DNA of 41,558 nucleotides from an uncultured Acidobacteriota bacterium (lineage in GTDB: Bacteria; Acidobacteriota; UBA6911; CAINFC01), in NCBI GenBank assembly GCA_903847975.1, contig CAINFC010000276.1:1-41558 (forward strand). The letters run 5' to 3'. Within the stretch, counting starts at the first letter, position 1, and the number at the start of each line of letters is the position of its first letter. Under the pieces are notes generated by a model. The model did no database searches. It had not been told where the DNA came from and saw only the letters and a list, made by a program, of their open reading frames with translations. This document shows positions 6,901-20,846 of the stretch, one piece after another. Both the position numbers and the translations under genes were made by a program.

Positions 6901-7997
6901 GGGTCGGAGGGATTCTCCGACCGGTGTCCCGAGAGGCCGCCGTCGCGCCTGCCGTGTTTTCCGGAAGCTCCGACTGGAAGGAAGTGAGGGCCCGGGCCTA
7001 TATCCAGGATAATTTCGACTATTGCCTCCTCCGGATCGAAATCACCGGAGGAGGGCAGTACCGGCTGGACGATTTCACCGTTACCTCCCGGGAGCACATG
7101 CCGCTGGCCATTCCGCTGGAGCCCCGGGGGCCGGTGCAGATCGGCTTCCTGATCCACATCGAGGATGTGCCGGCCCTGCGAAGCGACACGCCCTATTACC
7201 GCGCCAAGACGCAGGTGTTCCTGGATCTGGCGGACCTTTTCCGGCGGCACGGGGCGCGGATGACCATTCAGCCGGAGCTGGACTGGGTGATCGGCGCGCA
7301 GCGGTCGGATCCCGGCCTGATCCGCCGGCTGCAGGAGCAATACGACGTGGGATTCAGCGTGCACACCCACGGGCCGCAGATTCCGAACCCTTCCGAAGCG
7401 GCGGTCCTGGATTATATCGCCGAGCGGAAAAGCGCCCTGGAAGCGTCCGGCAGCGGGCCGGTCACGGACCTGAACGGCAACTTCGATATGCCTGACTGGT
7501 CCGTTTTTGCGCGCGCCGGCATCCTCTCGATGACCGCCTATAAAAACAAGAACACCCAGGCGGGTTATGAAGGGCATTACTTCCATCCATGGCGGCCCTC
7601 TCCCGGCAACCCTACCATCGACGAGAAGGCCTGGGCGGTGGACGATCCTTTCGGCCGGGTGGTCTATCTGCCGGGCGACTGCACCCAGGTTACCAAATTC
7701 CACTCACGGCTGATGGAACGGGTGCTTCCGGGCTTGACCTACGCTCTGGCCAATGCCCGGCCGAAGCAATCGACCACCTGGTATTTCATCGGGCATGTGG
7801 ATAGCTTTGCGGACAAGGACGGGGCGGATCTTGCAACCTACATGGCTTCCGGGCAGTACCGCGAGGATCTGCAGTTTTACGATCGGCTGCTCGAGGAGGT
7901 TCTCGATCCGCTGGTGCAGAGGGGATTTGCCCGGTGGGCTCATCCGTCGGATATGCGCGAAGCCTTCGAATCCTCTTCCGCCGCTTCGCAGCCCTAG
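3975..7997 (+). CDS. Large exported protein: alpha/beta-hydrolase-like region plus two polysaccharide-deacetylase-like domains
   Basis: A 1340-residue secreted multidomain protein. The start is the ATG at 3975, preceded by AAGGAGAG; the frame stays open 507 nt further upstream, but that part overlaps the divergent promoter region and has no ribosome site. In order: signal peptide (1 to about 45); an alpha/beta-hydrolase-like region with VVLVPGGF and a nucleophile elbow AQSNGGS (S181); two calcium-loop-like segments, DNNGNGRLD (from D287) and DVNHNGMVDADED (from D305); a threonine-rich linker (about 510-542); a first NodB-like domain (about 550-690, FALNCHDWSD, ISYHVRAPHP); a beta-rich stretch (about 890-1040); and a second NodB-like domain from about 1054 (GFLIHIEDVP, FSVHTHGPQ). 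Polysaccharide deacetylases use an Asp-His-His metal site; the histidine pairs are present, but I cannot confirm activity. An envelope or extracellular glycan target is inferred. Confidence 0.75.
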   Translation: MNPEKWMIPTTAAGSRCKPAFRFARLLPGLLLFTALSPAQVPSAGASLVNTRVSSDAAGQGSLAVRLYAPSSASRFRYGSADGAPVVVLVPGGFEPGSLDAQAGPFVDQGLVVITFLFPGGIQGPFRSDGTYDDRGDSCHRALRDVLRFAAGEKADVQGRTLSQLVSGPVRKDAVGILAQSNGGSIAAAALGRYGEQIPPLGFLIPWESPTNDQVLAAELGAREMDPDLLSDADRDGLPANDGANPAYHQYGFPSCSVDYSRLRFDPAARYQYRGSGPFYQGLFYFDNNGNGRLDLSAPGTVQTDVNHNGMVDADEDYPVPGLAAVLPDGSRRAYLSVKAAEAAASARLADPWPAHIAAAEETRAYWEIRNANLYFAALASRQPALAGMSVFSRIDHVQVATDHPHVHHYLDGFRQNRLWYRLNPDAAYVRSVAGSAYPDPVDNDANLNPAPGEMSSLAEPPSRASALLLQAAALAEMADRCAYRNWSPNLTEPIHPGVGRPLSAGYAGATTTTTTQTVSTTTTTTTTTTRPGASSTTSSTLPNVSPAPRWLTFALNCHDWSDPDRSAETLTFFLDTLDQHRFQGELYLTAPLVEVLVQKHPALIERLRGAVHTISYHVRAPHPALYAPTGSWLEKYSLARYESCRLDMRTGGLDESQPGGYEYVARVFGRKPVASGVSTLPPELLREYASVLAARGARVMVFEHQTQGQRGWEALAGVRSGLYPRPADYFLARTDARGHAAVQGDFWWNRISSGQITAEELASAFREDFLDQAGFGAHPRFGIVVIHENDFYSRGVSWNPIYFSDEAAGGRPLNPPYDLSRAGLGIPIRSAAEQLAIRRAFAALARAAAADAETRVATSAEVARYGDSLVPAGTFPQKAEEWFADPGLEENPLLRYPFVSGNLPGDPVPVTAVFQVSEKAARSGKKGLWIDAARDSSLVLQTRLDLDKGREFTFGASVAASGPGSISFSLIPVAWVGGILRPVSREAAVAPAVFSGSSDWKEVRARAYIQDNFDYCLLRIEITGGGQYRLDDFTVTSREHMPLAIPLEPRGPVQIGFLIHIEDVPALRSDTPYYRAKTQVFLDLADLFRRHGARMTIQPELDWVIGAQRSDPGLIRRLQEQYDVGFSVHTHGPQIPNPSEAAVLDYIAERKSALEASGSGPVTDLNGNFDMPDWSVFARAGILSMTAYKNKNTQAGYEGHYFHPWRPSPGNPTIDEKAWAVDDPFGRVVYLPGDCTQVTKFHSRLMERVLPGLTYALANARPKQSTTWYFIGHVDSFADKDGADLATYMASGQYREDLQFYDRLLEEVLDPLVQRGFARWAHPSDMREAFESSSAASQP

Positions 7998-8285
7998 GCC
8001 GCAGGGAAGGAGGGATGCTGGCCGCTATGTGCGGCTGCATCTGGAATGCCAGTCAGATCGAGGCCGGATTGGGACTTGGCCACCATACTGTCGATTCCTA
8101 TCTCGATTATCTGGAAGGAGCCTGCCTGATTCGTTGCCTGCCCCCGTATTCCGCCAACCTCGGCAAACGGCTGGTGAAGAGCCCCAAAGAATACGGGAGG
8201 GACAGCGGATTGCTGCACCGTCTATTGGGAAATCCGTCGCTTTCGCGTTCCCATGGGCGCGATCTGGCAGGTATTTTCGAGCTTC
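7973..8285 (+). pseudogene. Remnant of a DUF4143 AAA+ ATPase (C-terminal part only)
   Basis: The plus frame reads a recognisable piece of the DUF4143 domain found at the C-terminus of small AAA+ ATPases: LLxASxIxxxLGxxxxTVxxYLDYLEGxxLIRxLPPY, then ANLGKRLVKSPK and YGRDSGLLHRLLG. The ATPase (Walker) half is missing. After LLG (about 8227) the match continues in another frame as PMGAIWQVF (about 8252-8280), equivalent to the family's PVVGASWEGF, so there is also a frameshift. The remnant abuts or overlaps the 3' end of the deacetylase-like gene and converges on the nucleotidyltransferase gene. It is not expected to be functional. Confidence 0.75.
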
Positions 8286-9098: not shown

Positions 9099-9127
9099 TC
9101 GGGTCCGCGACCCGACCAGGAAAAGGA

Positions 9128-9293
9128 GGGCGTCAGGCAAGAATCGTCTTTCCCTGGAGGGGCAAACGAGAACAAAGGAGCAGCGGGAGGCTCGCTTCTT
9201 TTTGATATCGGTGCCCGAACGATAGAAACGGAGAAGAACGCAGGGACACCCGCTTTCCCCTCGACGGACCGGAAAAAATGGGTGTCCTTTTCT
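9128..9293 (-). mobile_element. Miniature deletion derivative of the IS91-like element at 19.1-20.1 kb
   Basis: Three blocks are shared, in the same order and orientation, with the longer element at 19055-20148. The outer block 9233-9293 matches 20087-20148 (GAACGCAGGGA, CCGCTTTCCCCTCGAC, GGAAAAAATGGGTGTCC). A short block 9204-9230 matches 19635-19662 and on the minus strand encodes VRAPIS, part of the transposase. The other outer block 9128-9200 matches 19055-19129 (AAGAATCGTCTTTCC, GGGGCAAACGAGAACAAAGG). The coding interior is almost entirely gone, so this is a non-autonomous derivative or scar about 166 bp long. It lies just upstream of the promoter of the 9082 gene and beyond the 3' end of the MFS gene. 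Confidence 0.65.
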
Positions 9294-9368
9294 TTCCGAC
9301 GCTTTTCTTTCTTTTCTTTTTATATCCGTTTCGCTCCGCCCTTTCCGGAAGGGCGTGGTGCCGGCCGG

Positions 9369-10628
9369 TTATATGTTTGCGGGCGGGATTCGGATCGGCA
9401 GCAGGAAGAGCAGGAGGCGACCGGCAATGCCGATAAAAACGACCATCAGGAGGGGAGTGGTATAGGTCCCGCTCCACTCCCGGACCAGGGAAATAAAATA
9501 GGGAAACCATGTTTGCCCCAGGGTCATTACCGCCAGAACAATGGCCAGTATTCGCGCCAGGGAAATCGAGTTGAAATAATCCGCCGCCATTAATGCGATG
9601 ATCAGGAAGTCTCCGCCAAGGGCTAAACCGAACAGCAAAGGAAATAAATAAGCGGGACGTCCGGGCTGCAGAAGCAATAGAAAGGGAATGGCGCTCACGA
9701 AGAACAGGACCATCAGGGATAAAACATGCTGCTTGGGAAAGCGATCGGCCATCCACCCTGCGGCAATTCGACTGCCGGCGCTGACGATCAGCAGCAGCAG
9801 GAGTGTCTCACTGAAAATGGAATTCAGCTGCAGCTGGTCGCGGAATCCGGCATCTTTGAAAATCAGTTTCAAGTGCTGGCTTATGGCCCCCAGCGCCCCG
9901 CTGATACAGGTGCCGCCCAGCATAAGGATCCAGAAAATCCGGGAGCGAATCATATCGGCAAAGGGCAACGCCGACTCCGGGTCCGCCGGTTCGGCAGGGG
10001 AAGGGGGGGATCCATCCGGATGTAAGCCCATCAGGGCCGGTCGGTCCTTGTACACCAGCAGCACCAGCGGCCAGGCCAAAAACTGCAGGCTGCCCATGAC
10101 GATTAATGCCGTACGAAAGCCGTACGTTTCGGTGATCGGTTGGACCAGGAAGCGCGAAGAAACGGCACCGATCACGTTGATTCCGAGGTAGGCTATGGAA
10201 AGCGCCAGTCCCCGTTTTTCCCGGAACCATTGTCCCAGGAGCATTTGATGGGTAAGGACGCCGCTGAAAACGTTTCCGACCATATAGAGCAGCCAGAGCG
10301 CCCAATAAACCCATAGTGCGCCCGACATGATTCCGAAACCGAAAAAGGTCGCCGCCGTACATGCCGTTCCCAATAAAATTAACATCCGCGGCGGGAAACG
10401 CGGCACAAGGATCGGCCCTACCCAAAGTGTAAACAGCGTGCCCACCGGCAATCCGAAGGTAATCACCGAGCGGGACCACCCGAAGCCGCCCGCGATGCCG
10501 GGCTTCTCAAAGTAATCATAGAAGAAGGTCATGCCGAAATAGGGCAGTCCAACCGATAATCCCAAGGTGAAAAAGGAGGCGAGAACGATGCGCCAGCCGT
10601 AAAAAGGGATAGGTAATTGCTTTTCCAC
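9369..10628 (-). CDS. MFS transporter, OFA/monocarboxylate-type
   Basis: A 419-residue polytopic inner-membrane protein with about 12 hydrophobic segments, starting GWRIVLASFFTLGLSVGLPYFG, the common beginning of the OFA (oxalate:formate antiporter) and monocarboxylate-transporter branch of the major facilitator superfamily. Other family features are GWSRS near the first loop, GQWFREKRGLALSIAYLG at the domain-A motif, a central hydrophilic loop (about 195-220) and a basic C-terminus. Substrates in this group are small organic acids; the particular one cannot be read. The start is a GTG at 10628 located inside a dispersed promoter repeat, about 20 nt after TATACT. There is no partner gene. Confidence 0.85.
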   Translation of the reverse strand: MEKQLPIPFYGWRIVLASFFTLGLSVGLPYFGMTFFYDYFEKPGIAGGFGWSRSVITFGLPVGTLFTLWVGPILVPRFPPRMLILLGTACTAATFFGFGIMSGALWVYWALWLLYMVGNVFSGVLTHQMLLGQWFREKRGLALSIAYLGINVIGAVSSRFLVQPITETYGFRTALIVMGSLQFLAWPLVLLVYKDRPALMGLHPDGSPPSPAEPADPESALPFADMIRSRIFWILMLGGTCISGALGAISQHLKLIFKDAGFRDQLQLNSIFSETLLLLLIVSAGSRIAAGWMADRFPKQHVLSLMVLFFVSAIPFLLLLQPGRPAYLFPLLFGLALGGDFLIIALMAADYFNSISLARILAIVLAVMTLGQTWFPYFISLVREWSGTYTTPLLMVVFIGIAGRLLLFLLPIRIPPANI

Positions 10629-10676
10629 GTTTTCTTACCACTTCGCAAGTATACGATGCCGATAAAGGATTGGGAA
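10605..10676 (-). promoter_or_regulatory. Dispersed promoter repeat, copy A (drives MFS gene)
   Basis: The minus strand carries TATACTTGCGAAGTGGTAAG followed by AAAACGTGGAAAAGC; the GTG in this segment is the start codon of the MFS gene. The same sequence recurs at 14908-14979, 18958-19034 and 20560-20636. Here the part upstream of the -10 (TTCCCA as -35, 17 bp spacing) has diverged from the other copies, while everything downstream of TATACT is closely kept. Confidence 0.65.
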
Positions 10677-10970
10677 TTTTATAGCGTTTCATTTCCCCCT
10701 CTTCCATCAGACAGATCAGGAGGGAGATCTGGAACTCGTCACGAAGCCGATCCAGAGTATTTCCTAGGTCCCGGTCCCAGAGTGCACCGTAAAACGAATT
10801 GCACTTCTTTCCAGGAGCGATGGTCAACCCGATTTTCCCCTTCCCGGGTAGATGCAGGTCTTCACCTGATGTATGCCGGGAAATTCCTTTTTGCCCGCCT
10901 GGGACAAAAGGAATGGCATGGGACCTGGCTGAAGCCCGGCACCCGGATCTATATGCTGGATTGGTGCTAA
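10677..10970. other. Stretch without a recognised gene, left of the insertion sequence
   Basis: No frame on either strand gives a recognisable protein. Minus-strand residues such as LDRLRDEFQISLLICLMEEGE could be part of a decayed coding sequence, but there is too little to identify. The ISAzo13-type element was inserted at its right edge. Confidence 0.4.
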
Positions 10971-14685: not shown

Positions 14686-14907
14686 CAATTTATGGCTGAT
14701 CCCGTACCTCCCACCTTCCGCTCTGCCAAGAAAGGGCTTTGGCGGTAGATTTATGGGTCATGCTGGGCGTCCGGATGGACGGCCAATCTGATTCCGCGCT
14801 TGTCCGGTTCGATTCCCCATGGAATGATCCTTGCAAGTCAATCCTGCCTTCTTATTCCATCCCTCAACCCCAAAAAGATCACGGTTCTTTCTTGACGTCC
14901 CCCTTTC
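14686..14907. other. Spacer without a recognised gene
   Basis: No conserved reading frame is seen. It separates the first glycosyltransferase gene from promoter repeat copy B. A further gap, 14980-15103, holds only a 32-codon frame (14979-15077, MNRGGSVGLSLRGD...) without a ribosome site, which I do not consider an established gene. Confidence 0.4.
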
Positions 14908-14979
14908 GCTTGATTTTGCTGTAGCTGCGTCGTATACTTGCGAAGTGGTAAGCAAACGGGGGAATACGGTTGCTTACTA
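14908..14979 (+). promoter_or_regulatory. Dispersed promoter repeat, copy B
   Basis: TTGATT (14910-14915), a 17-bp spacer, and TATACT (14933-14938), followed by TGCGAAGTGGTAAGCAAACG. It is the only copy on the plus strand and points toward the glycosyltransferase genes starting at 15104. The -35/-10 half is nearly the same as copy D (TTGATTT-GCTGT); the 3' half has diverged (GGGGGAATACGG instead of GTGGAAAAGCGG). Confidence 0.7.
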
Positions 14980-18840: not shown

Positions 18841-18978
18841 CTATCGCAGGACCAGAAGAAGAAATAGCAGAATGCCGAGAAAGGCGGCCAGGAGAGCCAC
18901 GGCGCGCGGGTTGCTGAAATTGAGGGTGTAACCGATTCCAAAGCGGCGTTCGATAAACAGAGATAGATAGGTAGTCGC
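18841..18978 (-). pseudogene. C-terminal fragment of a DUF5808-type small protein
   Basis: The minus frame from 18978 to the stop at 18841 reads SLFIERRFGIGYTLNFSNPR followed by a hydrophobic helix (AVALLAAFLGILLFLLLVLR). The FGIGYTLNF core followed by one membrane segment is the pattern of DUF5808. There is no start codon: a stop lies just upstream, where promoter repeat copy C begins. The gene's own 5' part therefore seems to have been replaced by the repeat. The remainder of 18718-18840 has no recognised content. Confidence 0.55.
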
Positions 18979-19034
18979 TTATCCACGTTTTCTTACCACT
19001 TCGCAAGTATACGACCCAATACCAGCGAAAGCAT
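18958..19034 (-). promoter_or_regulatory. Dispersed promoter repeat, copy C
   Basis: Minus strand: TATACTTGCGAAGTGGTAAG, then AAAACGTGGATAAGCGACTACC. Upstream it keeps TTTCGCTG as in copy D, but the -35 position reads ATGCTT instead of TTGATT, so this promoter is probably weak. It is joined directly to the DUF5808 fragment on one side and lies 21 bp from the end of the IS91-like remnant on the other. Confidence 0.65.
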
Positions 19035-19054
19035 GCATAAACGAAGAAAAAATA

Positions 19055-20148
19055 GGGCGTCAGCCAAGAATCGTCTTTCCGTGCAGGGGCAAACGAGAAC
19101 AAAGGAGCAGCGGGAGGCTCGCCTCTTCCTTTTTCCTGGGGAGGAGGGTGACGATTCGACAGACGAAGGGCATCCAGAAGGCGGGGCGGGACAGACCTCC
19201 CCCATGGTCGCCCGGGGCGACCGCCAAAAAAGGCCGCCTGCCCTGCCGGGTTCCCGGCAACCTGATTCGAGGAAGGCAGGGGAGAAGAACCTAATCCGGA
19301 TAGATGGGGTCCAGGCCGTCGTACGAAAAGACCAGTTCCATATCCCAAGGCAAACGATCCTCCCCCGCGGGTTCCGCCGGTGCGAGGGGAACGATCTTTT
19401 TAAGGGGAGGACGAGGAGGCGTTTTCCGGATTCCCAGATGCTGAAGAATTAACGAGGTAGACTTTCTCGATGAGCTTTCGCAGGCCCCTACTTTTATTGG
19501 ATTACCCGAGCGAAGCCAGGCCATCCAAGGGATCCTGGTGGGGGGTATCCTCGGCGAACCGAGGATGGCCGGGCGAGGGTTCAGGCCGGTAATCCACCGT
19601 ACCGTTGGGACCATCGTAGGAGAGGCGGTCGAGGGATATCGGTGCCCGAACGACATAAACGGCAAGCTTTTCGGGGGCCGCGGTATCTTCGGACAAAACC
19701 GGCGGACCTTGATACACGGAGAATCCGGTATATGGGAGGCGATCCGGAATTTCTATCGTTGCCGGATCAATCTTTTCCAGGCGTAAAAGCTCCTGCAGCA
19801 GGGTATGACGAAAGAGCAGCATGAGTTGTTGGGAGTCTCAGGGGGGGCAAAGGTTGGAAGGAACCATCGGTACGGAAAACGCCATTGGTTAGAATGCTAC
19901 GGCAATGGGGGTGCCGATGGGCCAACTTATCCCCGAACGTTTGTAGACTACTCACAATACCGGGGACCGAGCGAGGGTCATCGGATACGGCTTGCATCAT
20001 CTCCCGAACAGCCGCATACGCGCAGGAACTCAATAACCCCGGGAGTTGGTATGACAGTCCTGGGCCGGTTTACGCGGGGCCTCCCGGAAGAACGCAGGGA
20101 AACCCGCTTTCCCCTCGACTGACCGGAAAAAATGGGTGTCCTTTTCTT
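19055..20148 (-). mobile_element. Decayed IS91-like (HUH, Y2-type) transposon
   Basis: About 1.1 kb bounded by two sequence blocks that also bound the miniature copy at 9128-9293: 20087-20148 at the transposase-start side and 19055-19129 at the other. Between them lies a frameshifted transposase pseudogene. Elements of this class move by a rolling-circle mechanism, lack long inverted repeats and can mobilise adjacent DNA. The 19130-19290 part carries no recognised coding sequence except the element's own tail. Confidence 0.65.
19291..20040 (-). pseudogene. IS91-like transposase (PF04986, putative transposase), multiply frameshifted
   Basis: Pieces of one transposase are found in successive minus-strand frames. 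First, 20033 to about 19860: VPGIVSSLQTFGDKLAHRHP then ILTNGVFRTDGSFQPLPPL, equivalent to the family's VQTFGxxLxxHPHxHxLxxDGxF; the HUH histidine triad HPHxH is here HPHCR, so the metal site is damaged. Second, 19822-19502: LLFRHTLLQELLRLEKI, TGFSVYQGPPVL, YVVRAPISLDRLSYDG. Third, about 19450-19291: LILQHLGIRKTPPRPP to the stop. The zinc-binding C-terminal core (CPxCGG) appears deleted. Not functional. Confidence 0.72.
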
Positions 20149-20234: not shown

Positions 20235-20486
20235 TTAATCGTGGTCGCCTCTGAAGTCTGCTACGATATAGTGATAGGTTCCGACCTCACGTAAATGTCG
20301 GTCCATGAACCCGCAAATTTCCAAATACGTTTTGCCGCGGTGAGACCAGCCGCATGTTTGGCATTGGGCATACCACCCTTCCGTGGTAGTACCTCCGGCA
20401 ACTTCCCCCAGTTGCTCGTCGGGGATCTCGGACAAACGGACGACAGGATCCACCGACTGGATACGCTTTTTTGATTTTGAGAACAT
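20235..20486 (-). CDS. Small peptide with double-glycine leader and Cys/His-rich core (RiPP precursor-like)
   Basis: An 83-residue protein. Residues 1-32 look like a bacteriocin/RiPP leader: charged start (MFSKSKKRIQ), then LSEIPDEQLGEVAGG with leucine at -7, valine at -4 and glycine at -2/-1 relative to a cut after G32. The remaining 51 residues hold C42xxC45, C58, H64 and H72 in CQTCGW...ICGFMDRHL, which resembles a small zinc-ribbon/zinc-finger spacing. Peptides with such leaders are normally cut and exported by C39-peptidase ABC transporters; none is in this window. The start is the ATG at 20486, with a weak AAGAGA upstream; the longer frame to 20585 begins in promoter repeat copy D. An intracellular zinc protein is the alternative reading. 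Confidence 0.6.
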   Translation of the reverse strand: MFSKSKKRIQSVDPVVRLSEIPDEQLGEVAGGTTTEGWYAQCQTCGWSHRGKTYLEICGFMDRHLREVGTYHYIVADFRGDHD

Positions 20487-20559: not shown

Positions 20560-20636
20560 GGGTGGATAGCTAACCGCTTTTCCACATTTTCTTACCATTT
20601 TGCAAGTATACGATGCCGCCACAGCGAAATCAAACA
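20560..20636 (-). promoter_or_regulatory. Dispersed promoter repeat, copy D (upstream of the leader-peptide gene)
   Basis: Minus strand: TTGATT (20633-20628), 17-bp spacer, TATACT (20610-20605), then TGCAAAATGGTAAGAAAATG and GTGGAAAAGCGGTTAGC. It gives the 20486 gene a leader of about 110 nt. -35, spacing and -10 are the same as in copy B, making these the two best promoters of the set. Confidence 0.7.
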
Positions 20637-20846
20637 AAAAGGGGTGTCGGGATAATACCAGTATTTTTTCGGGGAGCGGAGAGGGGTCCGTTTCTGATTT
20701 AGCCCGGGAGTCTGTCCGAGAAAATTACTATGCGGAAGGCCGCTATCCAGCTCCCCGGAGGAATCGACTGGCAAGGCGATTGGGGGAGGGGCGCGCGGCG
20801 CGCGCCCCAAGGATTATCCGGAAAAGGAATGCCGGAGGATTCCGGA
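20637..20846. terminator. Spacer with a strong GC hairpin downstream of the Gfo/Idh gene
   Basis: GGGGCGCGCG-G-CGCGCGCCCC (20788-20808) is a perfect palindromic hairpin about 40 nt after the stop of the minus-strand Gfo/Idh gene. No T-run follows it, so it is either a factor-assisted terminator or a structural repeat. It also marks the right edge of the accessory island. No gene is recognised in the rest. Confidence 0.35.

Follow-up and report, generated by a model that had tools for sequence, protein, structure and literature searches.

We describe a small gene that quite probably encodes a double-glycine (GG) leader precursor for the sole NHLM exporter of its genome, with presumed cleavage after G32, export of the core, folding of the core around zinc outside the cell and a presumed activity there. 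The gene lies in a window of 41,558 nucleotides that covers contig C276 in full. The draft Acidobacteriota genome to which this contig belongs comprises 326 contigs with a total of 8.13 Mb, and is estimated to be 99% complete with 1.8% contamination. It occupies positions 20235-20486 on the minus strand and comprises 83 codons and a stop, read from an ATG at 20486. The 83-residue product consists of the leader MFSKSKKRIQSVDPVVRLSEIPDEQLGEVAGG and the core TTTEGWYAQCQTCGWSHRGKTYLEICGFMDRHLREVGTYHYIVADFRGDHD, and contains C42, C45, C58, H64 and H72, as well as H49 and H82. The division into a leader and a 51-residue core and the positions of the first five of these residues, as given in an earlier note on this DNA, were all confirmed from the sequence, the strand being minus.

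The start of the gene is not certain, because an in-frame GTG at 20585 (first base, minus strand) would give a 116-residue product with a leader 33 residues longer. The ribosome-binding site ahead of the ATG is weak. The GTG falls within copy D of a promoter repeat (20565-20640, minus strand; 76% identical to copy C), and an MFS-type gene (9369-10628) starts at the equivalent GTG of copy A, which illustrates that a GTG inside the repeat can act as a start codon. The repeat is composed of a promoter-like sequence, TTGATT-17-TATACT, and a conserved, initially transcribed stretch, TGCGAAGTGGTAAGAAAACGTGGAAAAGCG. It occurs genome-wide in at least 29 copies, which precede unrelated genes and include four in the window (10608-10683, 14899-14971, 18966-19041 and copy D). 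The repeat copy that had been proposed earlier as the promoter of the gene is thus real and contains a sigma-70-like promoter sequence at 20605-20633 (minus strand). This promoter is predicted from the consensus only and is conserved in the repeat family; shuffled sequences also yield about one such pattern per region of this size.

The DNA around the gene is a mosaic. A 177-bp stretch, unbroken at 9118-9294, recurs in pieces at 19045-19127, 19635-19662 and 20087-20148, with gaps of about 500 bases, and positions 20011-20085 match about 35 places in the genome, many of them at contig ends. By eye, we would guess that this split region is transposase debris of the IS91 type. On another contig (L042, G000:C105), a copy of the promoter repeat at 401-481 runs into a 490-residue ABC transporter frame that looks truncated at its N-terminus, as if the repeat had supplied the frame with a new start.

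The leader (residues 1-32; 20391-20486, minus strand) ends in GG and includes the predicted C39 peptidase recognition motif IPDEQLGEVAGG (residues 21-32; 20391-20426, minus strand), with cleavage expected after G32. According to PMC6363468, the C39 domain LahT150 reads the last 13 leader residues; it can do without Glu-5 and Glu-8 but depends on Val-4, on Leu-7 and on a residue at -12 that fits. The window leader carries V-4, L-7 and I-12, and is thus hydrophobic at the three positions before the GG cut site. A GG-leader profile built from other genomes ranked the window frame first among the 928 window frames (E = 0.007; the next, 5.7). By its sequence, the window peptide possesses the cut site and the hydrophobic -4, -7 and -12 residues of GG-leader NHLM/C39 substrates. 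In the NCBIfam search, the leader matched neither the NHLP (TIGR03793) nor the Nif11 (TIGR03798) long-leader model; the protein also had no match to the class II bacteriocin models PF10439 and TIGR01847, which some of its relatives match weakly. A direct cleavage test is feasible, since the tolerant C39 protease LahT150 has already been described.

Genome-wide, C39 peptidases were found at a single location, on contig C265; the window contig carries no C39 transporter. Contig C265 encodes a complete NHLM export system, including an ABC transporter with a C39 domain (TIGR03796; 904 bits, cut-off 853), a second ABC transporter (TIGR03797; 713 bits, cut-off 709) and an HlyD-like protein of 238 residues (TIGR03794; 111 bits, below the cut-off of 156). 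A short HlyD is normal in this clade, as the HlyD proteins beside the transporter in related loci are also short (169-201 residues). The expectation that the processing machinery would act in trans is consistent with this location. NHLM precursors may sit far from the export genes, and it is the NHLM transporters, not the modifying enzymes, that track leader families (Haft et al. 2010, PMC2887384).

Eight GG precursors were detected in the genome by the leader profile, the window gene and seven more; the leaders of the window gene, C289 and C73 had been included in the profile, whereas the remaining five were independent finds. Short cores follow long leaders in five of the eight, and by eye these leaders are of Nif11 or nitrile-hydratase type. 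The other three have short leaders; they are the window gene and two further Cys/His precursors, on C289 (EDTLYAECSYCGRLFSVTILTSHMSTCYMKP) and C35 (DGGVIYFCTRCLTCEITWGPMPGSSIPACEGQHTAQSGHNAFSRFQV). For the C35 peptide, the leader search gave a weak match (E = 0.76), and the Pelotomaculum-array profile described below a strong one (1.7e-5). A core pattern of CxxC plus His is present in all three short-leader and none of the five long-leader precursors (Fisher p = 0.018, for a small sample classified post hoc). Among the long-leader precursors are two candidate modified RiPPs, one on C294 (L157) near B12-type radical SAM genes and one on C73 (L158) near a weak match to a B12-type radical SAM gene.

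Relatives were found mainly beside NHLM exporters of Clostridia. A scan of the genome collection with the C265 transporter gave 80 loci, with a transporter of an Acidobacteria MAG (70% identity) followed mostly by those of Clostridia (66-53%). GG precursors adjoin the transporters in these loci, 130 of them in 42 of the 80 loci by a strict pattern; these counts are lower bounds, because the pattern missed a QGG-ending array in Pelotomaculum that was found by a looser one. Two CxxC pairs occur in 44 of the 65 cores that have at least two Cys or a CxxC, compared with 6.3 in shuffles, the sequences being related to one another and the counts therefore not independent trials. Of ten GG precursors compared with Pfam, most match zinc-ribbon or C2H2 families weakly (best 4.9e-6), all below the curated cut-offs.

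The array in Pelotomaculum sp. SL1-B34.2 (L088:14911-17519) consists of eight tandem short-leader peptides adjoining NHLM genes, for example MKKDLKNEKLLDEQLGRVQGG (leader) with ASKNIVTVHCQQCPWTYEGPADVALTAQKIHTRDTGHRWYDSRETRTFE (core). An independent profile built from these eight peptides alone ranked the window gene first among the 928 window frames, with E = 1e-6 (the next, 1.9). Over the 25,943 frames of all fetched loci, the same profile gave about 2e-5 for the window gene, and the C35 peptide of the same genome was equal. Further members are present in Dethiobacter, Syntrophothermus, Syntrophomonadaceae and two Clostridia MAGs. Judged from these sequence comparisons, the window gene is no chance ORF and belongs to a peptide family, encoded beside NHLM exporters of Clostridia, in which a GG leader precedes a core with C-x2-4-C-x-W and H-x-H. 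The earlier note had reasoned that relatives without a GG leader would speak against its reading; the relatives that share the core motif retain the GG leader. Together with the NHLM exporter of the genome, this conservation supports the idea of an exported metal-binding peptide.

In the taxonomic class to which Pelotomaculum belongs, 3 of 113 genomes gave a match at E <= 0.001, and the two outside Pelotomaculum are ordinary NHLP-type peptides. Among 396 genomes of the phylum of the window, a convincing match was found in the own genome alone, with no orthologue. The weak matches in the phylum were rejected as mostly out of frame, interrupted by stops or unrelated, the exceptions being L004 of the own genome and a Nif11 precursor in G209. 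A single-protein scan of the genome contigs and a tblastn search against phages and plasmids gave no relatives of the window peptide.

Several other features were observed in the fetched loci. Clostridial NHLM loci L110, L112, L122, L142, L121 and L153 carry many GG precursors with two-CxxC zinc-ribbon-like cores; such precursors of Clostridia may form a broad class of secreted zinc ribbons. CxC pairs and multi-glycine runs mark the GG precursors at L077:2777-3184 and 7731-8120, L087:14338-19767 and L138:4458-5316, and a radical SAM/SPASM gene adjoins those of L077. Amino-acid-type solute-binding proteins, one of which comes with a permease and an ATPase, are encoded directly beside NHLM precursor arrays (L088:17585-20203, and by eye L080:3984-4736); they are perhaps peptide sensors or importers.

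The core (residues 33-83; 20238-20390, minus strand) is predicted to be a zinc-finger-like mini-protein. In the AlphaFold model, for which a 12-row alignment (A7) was used, the leader has low confidence and the core is confident, with pLDDT about 92 over residues 41-70; strands at 37-42 and 48-51, a helix at 54-68 and a strand at 73-78 form a beta-beta-helix-beta order. The proposed zinc knuckle CQTCGW (20346-20363, minus strand), in which C, C and W are invariant in A7, places C42 and C45 on either side of the first turn. The proposed second ligand pair (20271-20297, minus strand) consists of H64, which is invariant in A7 and lies near the helix end, and H72, which lies just ahead of the last strand and matches the second histidine of the H-x5-H in the relatives, with a spacing of 7 instead of 5. 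C58 sits inside the modelled helix and is probably no zinc ligand. The predicted arrangement is that of a C2H2-like finger, in which these four residues would bind the zinc. Of the earlier suggestion of a zinc-ribbon-like Cys/His core, the finger-like fold stands as a prediction and the two-CxxC ribbon is replaced by a beta-beta-helix-beta, C2H2-like one.

Of the 928 window frames, one has the motif C-x2-4-C-x-W-x8-25-H-x3-8-H; shuffling of the window core produces it in 0.25% of cases. A core-only profile gives the window core no advantage over shuffled versions of it, so the homology rests on leader, motif and spacing together. Fold searches with Foldseek gave no match with E <= 0.001; in the viral library, small phage proteins are closest (probability up to 1.0, E 0.05 or worse). 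Single-protein searches of Pfam, NCBIfam, PHROGs and PDB gave no convincing match to the window peptide. Membership of an intracellular zinc-ribbon family, which had been named in advance as evidence against a secreted peptide, did not emerge, since no intracellular zinc family in the searched libraries matches the window protein.

The exporter has probably been acquired. In the transporter tree, the own transporter and that of the Acidobacteria MAG group together (100/100) and fall within the Bacillota transporters, while six other Acidobacteriota NHLM transporters stand apart from them, a split that has full support; an NHLM transporter above the cut-off is present in 24 of the 396 genomes of the phylum. 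Acquisition from Bacillota is the simplest reading. The existence of a related transporter in an Acidobacteria MAG argues against plain contamination.

The observations suggest the following mechanism. The C39 domain of the C265 exporter would dock on I-12, L-7 and V-4 of the leader and cut after G32, in trans. Type I exporters pass unfolded chains, and the 51-residue core would cross the ABC1/ABC2/HlyD complex unfolded and metal-free. Outside the cell, C42, C45, H64 and H72 would bind one zinc, and the core would fold into a beta-beta-helix-beta mini-protein in which zinc could serve as a fold lock, as disulfides or thioethers do in other such peptides. The likeliest role may be that of a secreted, bacteriocin-like competition or signalling peptide, with metal scavenging as the main alternative. 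A broader proposal is that unmodified zinc-finger and zinc-ribbon mini-proteins form a secreted class, which NHLM systems export across Clostridia and some Acidobacteriota have acquired, with external zinc replacing disulfides or thioethers; we put this forward tentatively, as an idea that falls a little short of probable.

Several observations count against this mechanism: the result of the core-only profile, the lack of an orthologue in 396 genomes of the phylum, the fold searches without a significant match, the draft state of the genome with its estimated contamination, and the setting of the gene, an orphan among IS debris that could be a remnant. A decayed or silent leftover of an imported precursor, without present function, would explain the repeat- and IS-rich surroundings, the lack of an orthologue in the sampled relatives and the weak ribosome-binding site ahead of the ATG. 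However, the ORF is intact and keeps the leader and the four proposed ligands, a promoter-like sequence is present, and the genome still has a full exporter and two intact precursors of a similar kind. We regard decay as unlikely.

The same exporter class is used by many RiPPs, and the core might be one whose cysteines are enzymatically modified, for example by thioether or radical-SAM cross-links, instead of a zinc protein. Radical SAM/SPASM proteins are indeed encoded in two related loci (L077 and L091), and two of the long-leader precursors of the own genome have B12-type radical SAM neighbours (C294) or a weak match to one (C73). Yet no radical SAM/SPASM relative was found in the whole window contig, on C289, near the C35 precursor or near the NHLM locus, nor, by eye, among the listed ORFs of the loci of the closest peptides (L088, L080 and L078). 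Cysteine modification would also leave the conserved Trp and the His pair unexplained, and a finger-like fold is confidently predicted for the unmodified chain; this explanation is rated as rather improbable. We consider it least probable of all that the protein is an intracellular zinc finger and the likeness of its N-terminus to a GG leader accidental. The weak structural matches to small phage proteins (E 0.05 or worse) and the non-significant core-only profile speak for this reading; against it, independent profiles recover the leader, the relatives retain it and are encoded in arrays next to NHLM exporters, and the searched libraries gave no intracellular zinc family that matches the protein. 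The reading as an exported, zinc-folded core is the one that we prefer.

Bacteriocins, signals and modified peptides are the known cargo of GG-leader exporters, and our analysis suggests that bacteria secrete miniature zinc proteins via a system known for antibiotic-like peptides. If so, the zinc-finger and zinc-ribbon precursors of such loci would represent a new strategy by which secreted bacterial peptides fold, many unnamed small genes of gut and sediment Clostridia would gain a testable function, and the module would be shown to have reached Acidobacteriota.

Among known systems, NHLM export with NHLP/Nif11 precursors (TIGR03793, TIGR03794, TIGR03796, TIGR03797 and TIGR03798; PMC2887384) shares with the present one the three-gene exporter, the GG motif, hypervariable cores and scattered precursors. 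It differs in that the window leader is short (32 residues) and has no nitrile-hydratase or Nif11 domain, the window core is a predicted folded zinc-finger-like domain whereas theirs is a short Cys/Ser/Thr-rich substrate, and no radical SAM/SPASM modification enzyme was found near the window gene. The Pelotomaculum sp. SL1-B34.2 peptides, for which the searched libraries give no family name, have the same short leader, GG, C-x2-4-C-x-W, helix and H-x-H; however, they are encoded in eight copies beside their exporter, with H-x5-H and QGG, while the window gene is a single copy with its exporter in trans, H-x7-H and AGG. Class II bacteriocins (PF10439, TIGR01847) likewise combine a presumably unmodified core with a short GG leader that a C39 transporter removes, but are characterized by a pediocin box or disulfides, in contrast to the four-ligand metal site proposed here.

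C2H2 zinc fingers (zf-C2H2_4, Sp1 finger 2) resemble the window core in C-x2-4-C, the hydrophobic or Trp spacer and the helix with H...H, the family profile giving a non-significant E = 0.57 against Sp1 finger 2; they differ in that the window peptide is presumably secreted, has no DNA-binding context and possesses an extra C-terminal strand. No Pfam or NCBIfam family covers the window peptide, and a literature search, mainly outside subscription journals, did not turn up any report in which a GG leader carries a zinc-finger core. The exporter class and GG leaders are already known, and what appears to be new here is a zinc-finger-like core on a GG-leader peptide predicted to be exported by an NHLM/C39 system.
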